Below, one piece after another: positions 620 through 32,631 of a DNA stretch of 34,670 nt (position 1 is its first letter; each line of letters starts with the position of its first letter). The DNA lies in NCBI GenBank assembly GCA_905233365.1, contig CAJODT010000025.1, positions 1-34,670 on the forward strand, in the 5' to 3' direction. The DNA comes from an uncultured Succiniclasticum sp. Lineage in GTDB: Bacteria > Bacillota > Negativicutes > Acidaminococcales > Acidaminococcaceae. The notes beneath the pieces are model-generated. The model had not been told where the DNA came from. It saw only the letters and a list, made by a program, of their open reading frames with translations, and did not search any database. A program made the position numbers and the translations under genes.

Positions 620-808
620 TATGTAAAAACAAAAGCCCATCGTTATGATGGGCTGAATTCTCAACATCCCATCATACAAGCTTTAGCACCTTACCTTTCC
701 AGCAGGTTGCTGTGCGGTCACGGAGCTTGTCTCTCGCGCACTCTTTATGGTCCATTGGGTGAAATAATTTGGAATTGTTAATCAGGAAGATCGCTCCTTC
801 CTTATTTC
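620..808 (-). promoter_or_regulatory. SAM-I-type (S-box) riboswitch leader
   Basis: Read leftward, the conserved S-box core is visible in order: AAAGAG (746-741), a P2 stem GTGCG/CGCAC holding a GAGAGAC...GCTCCGTGA kink-turn region, AGCAACC (about 711-705), and AAGGTGCTAA (692-683). The spacing from AGAG to GCAACC equals that of typical SAM-I aptamers as I remember them. P4 is not obvious, so a SAM-I/IV-like variant is possible. The 3' strand can pair with the terminator at 625-654, implying transcription attenuation when SAM is bound. The known role of the family is repression of methionine and sulfur genes; none is present here, only a 43-residue ORF. Confidence 0.6.
625..654 (-). terminator. 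First intrinsic terminator (expression platform) of the SAM-I-like leader
   Basis: Read leftward, AGCCCATC and GATGGGCT form a perfect eight-pair stem followed by TTTTGTTTTT. Its 5' half (CCCATCATA) can instead pair perfectly over nine bases with TATGATGGG at the 3' end of the aptamer (667-675). That gives the mutually exclusive terminator/antiterminator pair expected of an S-box leader. Confidence 0.8.
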
Positions 809-7380: not shown

Positions 7381-8883
7381 TCAAAGCCGGAGTGGCTTCT
7401 GCACCCGTTTCCCTGCTTCAATAGCCTGGACGGGACACACCAAAAGACAAAGATGGCAACCCACGCACTTGCGTACATCCAGTACGGGTTTATCCTCTGC
7501 ATCCAACCGTATTGCCTGATGGCCGCCGTCGTAGCAGGAAATATAACAACGCCCGCAACCGATACAATCTTTCCGCACAAAACGAGGGAACTGAACGCTG
7601 CTGCGATCCAGTTCTTCCGCTGTTACTATGTACGTCAGCGCCCTGCCCACGACATCCTGCACTCTTGTGAACCCGCGCAAAGCCAGGTAATCGCTGAGGC
7701 CTTCCTTCAAGTCATCGATGATGCGATATCCATATTGCATCACAGCCGTCGTAACCTGCAGGTTCTCGCAGCCCATAAGCAAAAACTCCATGGCGTCCCG
7801 CCAGTTCTCAATGCCGCCCATACCACTGATGGGAATTTCTGCCAACGCAGGGTCTTTGCGCATCTCGTTGATAAAACGCAAGGCAATCGGTTTCACTGCT
7901 TTGCCCGAATAACCGCCCTCGATGCTTTGACCGTTCACCCGCGGTTCTGACAAAAAGGTATCCAAATCAATGTTCATGATACTCCGGATCGTATTAATGG
8001 CCGCAATGCCGTCTGCCCCCGCAGCCACGGCAGCTTTCGCGGGTTCTTCCATGTGAGTGATGTTAGGCGTCATTTTGGCCAGCACAGGCAGACTTGTGCC
8101 TTTCCGCACCGCCGCTGTATAACGTTTCACCAATTCCGGATTCTCACCAATTTCTGCACCCAATCCCTTCCCTGACATCTGGGGACAGGAAAAATTACAT
8201 TCGATCATGTCCACGCCTGCCGCTTCCATATCCCGGGCCAGGCGCGTCCACTCTTCTTCGTTTCGACCCATGATGGAAGCGATAATGACCTTGCCGGGGA
8301 AGTTCTGTTTCAACCGCCGTAGAAAGTCAAGATTTTCTTCATAGGTATGGTCGGAAAGCTGCTCAATATTTTTGAAGCCAATAAAGGATTGACCTTCTTT
8401 GGCCAAGGCCGAAAAACGCGGGGATACTTCCTTAATATCCATGAACGAAATCGTTTTGAAGCAGACGCCGCCCCAGCCCATGGACAACGCCTTTGCTACC
8501 ATATCATAATTGCTGCCCACCACGGAAGAAGACAAAAAGAAGGGATTTTCGCAGTGCACGCCGCAAAAGTCAATAGAAAGGTCTGTTTTTGTTTTTGGCA
8601 CTTCCACATGCAGGGCGTAGAGATCGCAAAGCAACTCCTTAATCCGCACCGGCACATCCAGCTTGCCCCGCCGACAGGCCTGCATACAGGGAGCATCGCA
8701 GTTCTCGCAATAATGAATGCCCGGCAGGCGCCTCCGGGTTCCCACACGGTTCTCAAAATTCAGCGCCCGCACGATGCGGCCGACATCAATCCCGTGCGGA
8801 CAGGCAACGCTGCACTTTGGCTCATGGCAGAGCAGGCAGCGGCCGGCTTCTTCTTTAATACGCAGAATTTGCTGTTTCGACAT
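7381..8883 (-). CDS. PreA-like iron-sulfur flavoprotein (dihydropyrimidine/dihydroorotate dehydrogenase superfamily)
   Basis: This 500-residue protein has three parts. The N-terminal cluster module has CLLCHEPKCSVAC (C16, C19, C24, C28) and CENCDAPCMQAC (C59-C70). An FMN-binding TIM barrel (about 100-400) contains ECNFSCPQ (229-235) and AKMTPN. The C-terminal 2[4Fe4S] ferredoxin has DCIGCGRCYISC and KCVGCHLCLLVCP. It resembles PreA, the catalytic subunit of NAD-dependent dihydropyrimidine dehydrogenase, with a PreT-like N-terminal cluster domain added. The catalytic cysteine expected after NxSCP in PreA and DPD appears replaced around I245 (GLGAEIGENPEL), so pyrimidine reduction is doubtful. 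No PreT is adjacent; a GltD/PreT-like flavoprotein lies at 20008-21420. It is first gene of the leftward run. Confidence 0.85.
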   Translation of the reverse strand: MSKQQILRIKEEAGRCLLCHEPKCSVACPHGIDVGRIVRALNFENRVGTRRRLPGIHYCENCDAPCMQACRRGKLDVPVRIKELLCDLYALHVEVPKTKTDLSIDFCGVHCENPFFLSSSVVGSNYDMVAKALSMGWGGVCFKTISFMDIKEVSPRFSALAKEGQSFIGFKNIEQLSDHTYEENLDFLRRLKQNFPGKVIIASIMGRNEEEWTRLARDMEAAGVDMIECNFSCPQMSGKGLGAEIGENPELVKRYTAAVRKGTSLPVLAKMTPNITHMEEPAKAAVAAGADGIAAINTIRSIMNIDLDTFLSEPRVNGQSIEGGYSGKAVKPIALRFINEMRKDPALAEIPISGMGGIENWRDAMEFLLMGCENLQVTTAVMQYGYRIIDDLKEGLSDYLALRGFTRVQDVVGRALTYIVTAEELDRSSVQFPRFVRKDCIGCGRCYISCYDGGHQAIRLDAEDKPVLDVRKCVGCHLCLLVCPVQAIEAGKRVQKPLRL

Positions 8884-8932
8884 TGATAATCCACCTTCTC
8901 AAACTTAATGTTTCCCTATACAACCAACACGC

Positions 8933-30523: not shown

Positions 30524-31804
30524 CTATTTCGCTTCGTCCACATCATAATAGAAGTCCAGCGGGTTCAGCGGGACCAGTTTCTTCTTGCTTACGCGGTTGT
30601 GCAACGGATTGCCGTACACGATGACCGCGTAATCTTTATCGATGATATCCTGCATTTCCTGTAGGGATTTGGCATTGTCAAAAGCAGGATTGTTATATTT
30701 CGTGGTGTTTTCTACACTTTTGCTGTCAAAATACAGGCGATAATAGTTCTCCAGGGTACCGCTCTGGATGTTGGTTGTGGAAGAAAGAGTAAGATCAAAG
30801 TCTCCGCTCAGCTCTATGTTGCGTAACGCGTTCACATGGACAGACTGCAGTTTGAGGTCAATACCTGCCTTTTTCGCCTGCATCTGGGTAGCTTCCGCAA
30901 TAATCCTGAATTCCGGACGGCTTTCATAGAATACCATTGTCAGCGAAACCGGCTTATCCACCTTCACCGGGTTATAGACACGGTTGGATTTGGTATAGCG
31001 GGAATAATTGGGATTTAAGACTACGTAGCCGTGTAGCGGTTTTTCCATATCCTTCAGGTTGATGCACTCTGCCAGGATTTTGCGCAGCTTCGGATCGCTG
31101 AGCGGACGGTCCGGCCGCATGTTCATACGGGCCATGATGGTCCGCGCGCCGCCCACTTCTTCATGCTCGCGGCCTTTATAGTACTGGGGGTCTACGTCGA
31201 ACACCGCATCCAGTTCGCCCGTTTCAATGGCCATGCCACGAGTAGCGTTGTGTCCCATCGCAACATATTCATATTTTCTTCCCTTGCGCTCCACTACAGC
31301 TTTCTCGGCAGAGTAGGAAAGCACCTTGCCTCCTGTATAAATGTTGCCGCCTTTGGCGATACAAAACACCGGATCGGTAAGGACAGACTTCTCGCCGGTG
31401 TACTCAAATTTGTCATCCGCCAGCACTTTCCAGCTGCTGTTCTTCATAACTGCTTTGGCGCGTGGGTTCTTTGCACAGGAATCGGTCAGGCTGTCGCAGA
31501 TATCTTTGGCCGTTACCTTACTGCCGTCGGCAAATTTTGCGTCTTTCTTCACCGTAAAAACATTGCCGTCAAAATCTGCCAGCCAGGGCACCAGTTTCCC
31601 GTCCGTGGCAAACTTTACCACAGTTTCTCCTGCGCCGATTCGTGTGGTGGACCAGCCATCGTAACCCTTGGTGTGATCGTAAGTCGCCATCAGGTGCGGT
31701 ACGCCCACCTTGAACACCGCTGCCTCCTTTTTCTTTTCCCCGCCGCAGCCGGACAGGACCAGCGCCGCCAGCGCCATTACACATAAAACCTTCTTCGCCT
31801 TCAT
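30524..31804 (-). CDS. Orphan substrate-binding lipoprotein of the peptide/nickel ABC family (SBP_bac_5)
   Basis: A 426-residue lipoprotein. The signal peptide MKAKKVLCVMALAALVLSGC ends in a lipobox (LSGC), so it is anchored in the cell envelope. The body follows NikA/DppA-type proteins: TVVKFATDGKLVPWLADF, KKDAKFADGSKVTAKDICDSL and, late, SKSVENTTKYNNPAFD. It is shorter than the usual 500 residues, lacking part of the middle lobe. No permease or ATPase gene is in the window, so the partner is encoded elsewhere or absent. AGGAGAGGAGAAGATTAAA precedes the ATG at 31804; a start at 31840 would read through it. A terminator-capped structured RNA lies 90 bases upstream. Confidence 0.85.
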   Translation of the reverse strand: MKAKKVLCVMALAALVLSGCGGEKKKEAAVFKVGVPHLMATYDHTKGYDGWSTTRIGAGETVVKFATDGKLVPWLADFDGNVFTVKKDAKFADGSKVTAKDICDSLTDSCAKNPRAKAVMKNSSWKVLADDKFEYTGEKSVLTDPVFCIAKGGNIYTGGKVLSYSAEKAVVERKGRKYEYVAMGHNATRGMAIETGELDAVFDVDPQYYKGREHEEVGGARTIMARMNMRPDRPLSDPKLRKILAECINLKDMEKPLHGYVVLNPNYSRYTKSNRVYNPVKVDKPVSLTMVFYESRPEFRIIAEATQMQAKKAGIDLKLQSVHVNALRNIELSGDFDLTLSSTTNIQSGTLENYYRLYFDSKSVENTTKYNNPAFDNAKSLQEMQDIIDKDYAVIVYGNPLHNRVSKKKLVPLNPLDFYYDVDEAK

Positions 31805-31892
31805 TTTAATCTTCTCCTCTCCTTCCCATAACGCTTGCATTCTCCATAAATGCCAATAATTAATGTCCCCGCCGGCATTTTCGCAACGCAGA

Positions 31893-31954
31893 CAAATAAA
31901 AAAGCTATGAAGCGGCTGGCCCCTTCAAGGACCGGTAAGCCTTCATAGCTTTTG
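31893..31954 (-). terminator. Intrinsic terminator at the end of the structured RNA
   Basis: Read leftward, AAAAGCTATGAAG pairs with CTTCATAGCTTTT around an inner GGTCC/GGGGCC stem, and TTTTTTATTTG follows. On the plus strand only four T follow, so leftward use is preferred. Confidence 0.85.
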
Positions 31955-32127
31955 CATTTAAATATTCAACTGTTTTGGATTTTTAATGAGCCTCGTTTGT
32001 GTTGCGGTTCTGCTGTTTTGCAATGCACGCTGCATTACAACGTTTACGGCAAATTTAAAAAGAATCGCTACCGTGTTTTCATTCCCGAAAACACCCTTCG
32101 CTGTTGCGAAGCCCGTCACTCTTGTGA
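31893..32127 (-). ncRNA. Structured noncoding RNA or attenuated leader, unassigned
   Basis: Between a near-consensus leftward promoter and a strong leftward terminator lies about 235 nt with no ORF carrying a ribosome-binding site. In order it can form GTCAC-AAGA-GTGAC, CTTCG-CAACAG-CGAAG, GTGTTTTC-gggaat-GAAAACAC, then UUGUAAUGCA-GCG-UGCAUUGCAA (ten pairs), and finally the terminator stem. I recognise none of the common families (6S, SRP, RNase P, tmRNA, T-box, cobalamin, SAM, TPP). It is either a free small RNA or the leader of the lipoprotein gene 90 bases on, with the terminator as attenuator. Confidence 0.5.
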
Positions 32128-32133
32128 CAATTC

Positions 32134-32162
32134 ATTATACCATGCACCGGAGCAGCTGACAA
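32134..32162 (-). promoter_or_regulatory. Near-consensus promoter of the structured RNA
   Basis: Read leftward, TTGTCA (32162-32157) and TATAAT (32139-32134) are exactly 17 bases apart. It predicts an RNA start near 32127. Confidence 0.8.
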
Positions 32163-32208
32163 GAAAAACATACTGTCTTGGCTGTTTCTGTTTTTTAGGA
32201 GACGCTGA

Positions 32209-32631
32209 TTAATTCGCGTTTTCCTGTTTCATAATCTGCCGGATGATTTCCATGGCGTCCTGCAGGTACTCCGTTACCTTCTTTTCTTCCACTCCGGCGA
32301 TATAGGCCCGGCAATGATTCATGGGAATCAACACCACCTTAGCCTTGCTGGAAGAAACCGCCATGGCAATGGCCGGACTGATTTCCCCGTGCAGGGCGTT
32401 GGCCATGATGATGCCCGCAGGGCCGACGATAACATCCGCTTCCCCGGCGTTAAACAGGATCGCGTTTTCTCCGGTCGCAGCAAAAGCGGGGCCGCCTTTC
32501 AGCATGGTTTCCGTTGCGATGGAGTTAGTCCCTGTCGCCCCGATTTCCGCATCCGGGAAATTTTTGACAAGCAATTCTACCAGAGAACGGCCGATACCGC
32601 CGCCCTGTCCGTCAATTACAAGAATACGCAT
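32209..32631 (-). CDS. DUF3842 family protein
   Basis: A 140-residue protein starting MRILVIDGQGGGIGRSLVEL, a nucleotide-binding-like glycine-rich beginning. It continues NSIATETMLKGGPAFAATGENA, then GPAGIIMANALHGEISPAIA, and ends in a short acidic helix. This matches the DUF3842 family of anaerobic Firmicutes, whose function is unknown; the glycine-rich start suggests a Rossmann-like fold. The ATG at 32631 follows GGAGAGGCGGATC and is preferred over a start at 32700, which lies in the adjacent repeat element. Its stop codon falls inside a GCTGATTAATT sequence resembling the repeat's end. Confidence 0.82.
   Translation of the reverse strand: MRILVIDGQGGGIGRSLVELLVKNFPDAEIGATGTNSIATETMLKGGPAFAATGENAILFNAGEADVIVGPAGIIMANALHGEISPAIAMAVSSSKAKVVLIPMNHCRAYIAGVEEKKVTEYLQDAMEIIRQIMKQENAN

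Follow-up and report, generated by a model that had tools for sequence, protein, structure and literature searches.

A stretch of about 235 nt in the genome of an uncultured Succiniclasticum sp. raises the question of what a structured RNA with its own promoter and terminator does ahead of a gene for a peptide/nickel-type binding lipoprotein. An earlier note on this DNA (the window, i.e., the whole 34,670-nucleotide stretch analysed) had offered two answers, namely a free-standing small RNA (sRNA) or a cis-acting leader in an arrangement typical of riboswitches. We examined the locus, its relatives and their gene neighbourhoods, and found that it represents a family of leaders in front of nickel-type uptake genes.

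A predicted structured RNA between promoter and terminator

The locus and its neighbouring genes comprise the following features:

32134..32162, minus strand: sigma-70-type promoter, TTGTCA-17-TATAAT with extended -10, 11 of 12 consensus bases
32113..32130, minus strand: P1, first 5'-terminal hairpin, loop C[AAGA]G; position conserved in 27 leaders, stem covariation
32096..32111, minus strand: P2, second tandem hairpin, loop C[AACA]G; conserved position, stem covariation
31954..32095, minus strand: variable linker, ~140 nt in the window and 19-167 nt in relatives
31895..31953, minus strand: intrinsic terminator with U tract, seen in the fold; every relative has the stem and the T tract
31935..31949, minus strand: near-invariant terminator 5' arm, GCUAUGAAGGCUUAC, judged from 16 non-redundant leaders
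30524..31804, minus strand: putative controlled gene, NikA/SBP_bac_5-type lipoprotein (PF00496; weak match to Opp5A_nikA)
32209..32631, minus strand: upstream gene, DUF3842 protein (PF12953, 3.5e-45)

The promoter (TTGTCA at 32162, TATAAT ending at 32134, with a TG preceding the -10 box) is indeed near-perfect, and in relatives a -10-like hexamer is found at a comparable distance 5' of P1. The leader RNA (31893-32130, minus strand) has a predicted fold of -75.6 kcal/mol, which none of 200 dinucleotide shuffles equalled (mean -56.3, sd 4.1, z -4.7), and its terminator consists of a long stem followed by TTTTTTATTT; both the stable structure and the strong intrinsic terminator claimed by the earlier note were thus borne out. 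The same note had counted at least four hairpins, of which P1, P2 and the terminator are conserved, whereas those at 32094-32073 and ~32040-32018 are locus-specific and lie in a linker that is not alignable across relatives. A third hairpin after P2, with the loop GGAA or similar, is present in some SBP leaders, namely in the window (32094-32073) and in two others of the Succiniclasticum group, L008 and L009, and absent in other leaders.

The RNA still has no assigned family: no Rfam model matched the window leader at its gathering score (NiCo, cobalamin and T-box included), and thresholds relaxed to E 10 across 31780-32260 returned chance matches only. Elsewhere in the window, a SAM riboswitch (RF00162) was found at 666-753 (minus strand) with 48.8 bits, above its gathering score. 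As the earlier note had also stated, the window leader contains no ORF with a Shine-Dalgarno site. A leader peptide (MKA...) read from the terminator ATG (MKAYRSLKGPAAS; ATGAAGGC) was considered and rejected, given that it has no Shine-Dalgarno site, that its frame and length are not kept in relatives and that the ATG is missing in L111. The open frame of the downstream binding protein (SBP) reaches 31840, with a preferred start at 31804 (GGAGAGGAG-N8-ATG); this places the likely start ~91 bases past the terminator, close to the 90 bases noted before.

A leader family in Acidaminococcaceae

When genus and family were searched at the DNA level, both ends of the element were recovered and its middle was not. 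We used covariance models of the terminator (R1) and of the 5' domain (R2) to extend the search across the family. In total, 27 leaders are spread over 18 of the 59 Acidaminococcaceae genomes, all from Succiniclasticum and Phascolarctobacterium of the gut and rumen (S. ruminis DSM 9236 and P. faecium DSM 14760 among them), and a second copy is present in the window's own genome (G000:C97). All have a common architecture: -10 box, P1, P2, variable linker and terminator. A further model (R3), built from 20 distinct 5' domains, recovers 26 members, all with at least 36.9 bits, and among 380 genomes of the class nothing other than a known leader scored above 28.4 bits; the weaker matches that we inspected were mostly coding sequence. 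The 27th member, L111 (G008), is divergent and was identified on visual inspection, as it shares this layout. Veillonella, Blautia, Pseudobutyrivibrio and others that have the same methyltransferase or nik genes do not carry the leader.

The leader precedes nickel-type uptake genes

Of the 27 leaders, 26 lie directly 5' of nickel-type uptake genes or an associated methyltransferase, and the downstream gene of the remaining one is lost to a contig end. Specifically, the genes 3' of the leaders are NikA-type SBPs (13), nikB operons (4) and SAM-methyltransferases of the kind found in these operons (9, one of them being a second methyltransferase type ~750 bases past leader L101), and at L106 and L107 the leader stands before both nikB-C-A-D-E and methyltransferases. 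One leader locus lies near CbiK; together with the resemblance of the transporters to known families, this neighbour suggests that the substrate would be nickel or cobalt. The upstream neighbours of the leaders differ and several are divergent, which indicates that the leader belongs to the downstream gene. These observations support the cis-acting option and not the free-standing one. An independent sRNA of 130-280 nt, whose position before nickel genes would be incidental or which would act on them in trans, would account for a discrete transcript bounded by promoter and terminator; however, the constant location just 5' of nickel-type genes across contexts and genera, and an RNA middle that is unconserved, make it very unlikely.

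The SBP of the window (~426 aa, compared with ~500 aa for NikA) matches the NCBIfam model Opp5A_nikA at 6e-19, far below its cut-off, and its matches to NikA models lie mainly in the C-terminal half. There is no close nikB in the window's own genome, suggesting that this may be an orphan or repurposed binding protein. As to the upstream gene, DUF3842 proteins are encoded inside or beside nik operons, whether or not these have a leader (also at L107:8428-8850 and L108:7925-8338), and were detected above cut-off in 25 of the 59 genomes, including all 18 with a leader. A nickel-related function of DUF3842 is possible on the basis of these neighbourhoods. We rejected it as a leader-specific partner, as it also occurs in 7 leaderless genomes, there sometimes by nik genes.

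Tandem tetraloop hairpins covary as RNA

The loops of P1 and P2 have 4 bases with the pattern NNRA, are nearly always closed by C-G and rarely begin with G. The distance from the -10 box to the loop is ~15-22 bases, and that between the P1 and P2 loops 18-22 bases. A simple search for this tandem-hairpin pattern matched 20 of the 27 leaders, compared with 3 matches in 1.8 Mb of other DNA. The earlier note had suggested looking for compensating base changes and had named unconserved stems in relatives as the outcome that would speak against it; run on the relatives, this check revealed strong covariation. Across 20 distinct sequences, 95% of the cells in the P1 and P2 stems are paired and 44 are compensatory (13.9 in shuffles), with changes on both sides in 8 of 11 base pairs. 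The covariation score was 0.625, compared with 0.293 for shuffled sequences and 0.076-0.176 for slid partners (relatedness is not removed by shuffling, and it is retained in the slid controls).

From one genus to another the stems vary in sequence, whereas the loop pattern and the closing C-G are nearly constant, and this combination of constant loops with genus-specific, covarying stems argues for an RNA feature rather than a DNA operator. In the latter case, inverted repeats at ~+1 to +45 would be bound by a repressor and followed by an ordinary terminator of DUF3842. It is true that P1 and P2 form perfect inverted repeats that overlap with the start region and that the terminator in the window comes after DUF3842. 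However, compensating substitutions replace the stems entirely and leave the loops in place, the opposite of what a protein-read operator would show, and the gene upstream varies and is at times divergent; we find this explanation scarcely credible.

Two known systems have a comparable layout. ANTAR dual-hexaloop leaders (EutV, NasR type) also place two small tandem hairpins ahead of an intrinsic terminator in the nascent leader (PMC8934654), and by analogy a REC-ANTAR protein on P1-P2 could block termination here. An ANTAR gene was found in all 18 leader-bearing genomes and the leader in none of the 13 genomes that lack one, but 28 of the 41 leaderless genomes have an ANTAR gene as well. Furthermore, the leader loops are C[NNRA]G tetraloops, whereas ANTAR hexaloops require A as the first loop base (A1) and G as the fourth (G4) (PMC8934654): counting by eye in 20 aligned 5' domains, we found A1 in 0 of 40 loops, and G4 in 17 of 20 P1 but 6 of 20 P2 loops. 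In addition, P2 does not overlap the terminator, from which it is separated by the 19-167 nt linker, and ANTAR antitermination is in our view distinctly improbable. The LoaP/dfn system likewise combines a 5'-proximal hairpin with a separate terminator downstream in the leader. The loop of its dfn hairpin is of the UNCG type (PMC12691694), in contrast to the C-G closed NNRA loops described here, and LoaP can be excluded because of the NusG count: each of the 59 genomes encodes at most one NusG, with no LoaP paralogue. A CsrA-type reader was also rejected, as GGA is missing from many loops.

We found no description of the leader in Rfam or in the literature searched, whose coverage was incomplete. 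This makes it a new leader of the attenuator type, restricted to one family, which in its tandem-tetraloop layout is unlike the known tandem-hairpin systems tested.

CsoR/RcnR-type genes beside some leaderless nikB operons

DNA-binding repressors, NikR among them, are known to control nickel uptake. None of the 59 Acidaminococcaceae genomes encodes NikR, meaning that a family without this repressor places a conserved, covarying RNA leader before the same kind of genes. Four leaderless nikB operons (G001:C12, G064, G066 and G010) have a CsoR/RcnR-family gene within ~0.4-1.7 kb. In G001, G064 and G066 the nikB promoter also carries a G-tract palindrome (TATCCCC..GGGGA), the type of site bound by CsoR proteins (PMC3902906). 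No G-tract operator was seen at leader promoters, and no CsoR-family gene was found in the leader-bearing P. faecium and g11 genomes. The nik-like operons of G009, G004 and G024 had neither a leader nor a CsoR/RcnR device that we could recognise. Of the indirect evidence for a putative response of the leader to nickel/cobalt status, this swap of leader and CsoR/RcnR-type gene at one and the same operon is the strongest. The targets are of the same kind as those under NikR or CsoR/RcnR repression in relatives (nikBCADE, methyltransferase), but those regulators are promoter-bound DNA repressors whereas the leader is an RNA element.

Two of the CsoR/RcnR-type proteins have unusual features. One, with a His-rich N-terminus, is encoded directly upstream of nikB (L193:746-1105 in G001:C12). 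The other (L198:2981-3886 in G064), divergent from a leaderless nik operon, appears to be a fusion of a SAM-methyltransferase-like part with a C-terminal CsoR/RcnR-type part, and the same fusion is probably present in G066:C118 and G010:C23.

The terminator and its possible reader

Every one of the 27 leaders has a strong terminator. In the 16 non-redundant leaders, its 5' arm deviates from the consensus GCYAUGAARGC at 3 of 128 positions and its 3' arm, drifting through G-U pairs, at 10 of 128, a difference that is modest, is drawn from 16 sequences and partly arises by construction because the terminators were located by a 5'-arm pattern. Such a near-fixed 5' arm opposite a drifting 3' arm suggests that the former may be recognised in its own right. 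We rejected a NikR operator at GCTATGA...TCATAGC, considering that NikR is absent and that the arm spacing varies.

To pair with the terminator 5' arm, the upstream RNA was no better suited than shuffled sequence (mean z 0.01 over 27 leaders) in a search by duplex energies, a measure that leaves tertiary or short pairings outside its reach. Nor did we find co-evolved pairing between the 5' domain and the terminator (-14.5 kcal/mol for own vs. -15.1 for cross-genus combinations). An 8-bp match in L039 (GGUUGCAG with CUGUAACC) was discarded as an antiterminator, since it does not recur in other genomes. The lack of both a base-paired antiterminator and co-evolved pairing favours a trans-acting reader, and the former also argues against a classical riboswitch; together with the freely variable linker, it leaves the description of the arrangement as typical of riboswitches unsupported.

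The riboswitch reading nevertheless has points in its favour. P1-P2 and the conserved internal loop of the terminator would bind Ni2+/Co2+ or a related ligand and thereby stabilise termination, which would suit a regulon for metal uptake in genomes without NikR, and both the terminator 5' arm and a GGCNNAC bulge are conserved in sequence even where the flanking pairing is lost. The NiCo (czcD) riboswitch goes with nickel/cobalt homeostasis genes; by contrast, the present leader has tandem hairpins and a variable linker, and precedes uptake rather than efflux genes. Given that no Rfam model matched, NiCo included, that the linker between the two conserved parts ranges from 19 to 167 nt and that no alternative pairing would free the terminator, we consider a metal-sensing riboswitch rather unlikely.

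As expected of attenuation leaders, a promoter, covarying structured RNA and a terminator precede the start codon of genes that form a metabolically coherent set. We consider it probable, though by no means certain, that they are cis-acting 5' leaders which attenuate transcription of nickel/cobalt-uptake genes and whose tandem hairpins are read by a trans-acting factor. Short hairpins with similar loops and fixed spacing, followed by a free linker, resemble a site at which a trans-acting factor could dock and then modify the polymerase or the terminator. Transcription would start just before P1, the two tandem C[NNRA]G-loop hairpins would form as soon as the RNA's 5' end emerges, and the strong terminator would halt most transcripts ahead of the transporter gene. 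Under nickel/cobalt scarcity, a trans-acting factor on the hairpins, probably an RNA-binding protein, or else its release, would let RNA polymerase pass. The anatomy from promoter to terminator, its covariation and conservation and the gene association are observed, while we infer regulation at the terminator, the nickel/cobalt signal, a protein as the reader and the way in which the response runs; a constitutive terminator with stabilising 5' hairpins is also possible.

Tentatively, the leader might represent a new class of RNA regulator of nickel/cobalt uptake, be it a riboswitch of tandem hairpins and terminator receptor or the target of a metal-responsive, RNA-binding antiterminator replacing NikR and CsoR in this family. 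A new RNA-binding antiterminator or a metal-binding RNA may emerge from this family, and with 27 members and cultured carriers, RNA-level control of nickel uptake is directly testable.

Parts of the leader terminator have lookalikes elsewhere. At L168 of Clostridiales bacterium CHKCI001, where no tandem hairpins were found, a terminator-like hairpin (GCCATGGAGG...CATGGC, 8833-8890) is located just 5' of a related methyltransferase. Within the leader's own genus, GGCTTACCGGTT, 12 bases identical to the bulge region of the leader terminator, occurs at the leaderless nikB promoter of L199 (G010:C23).
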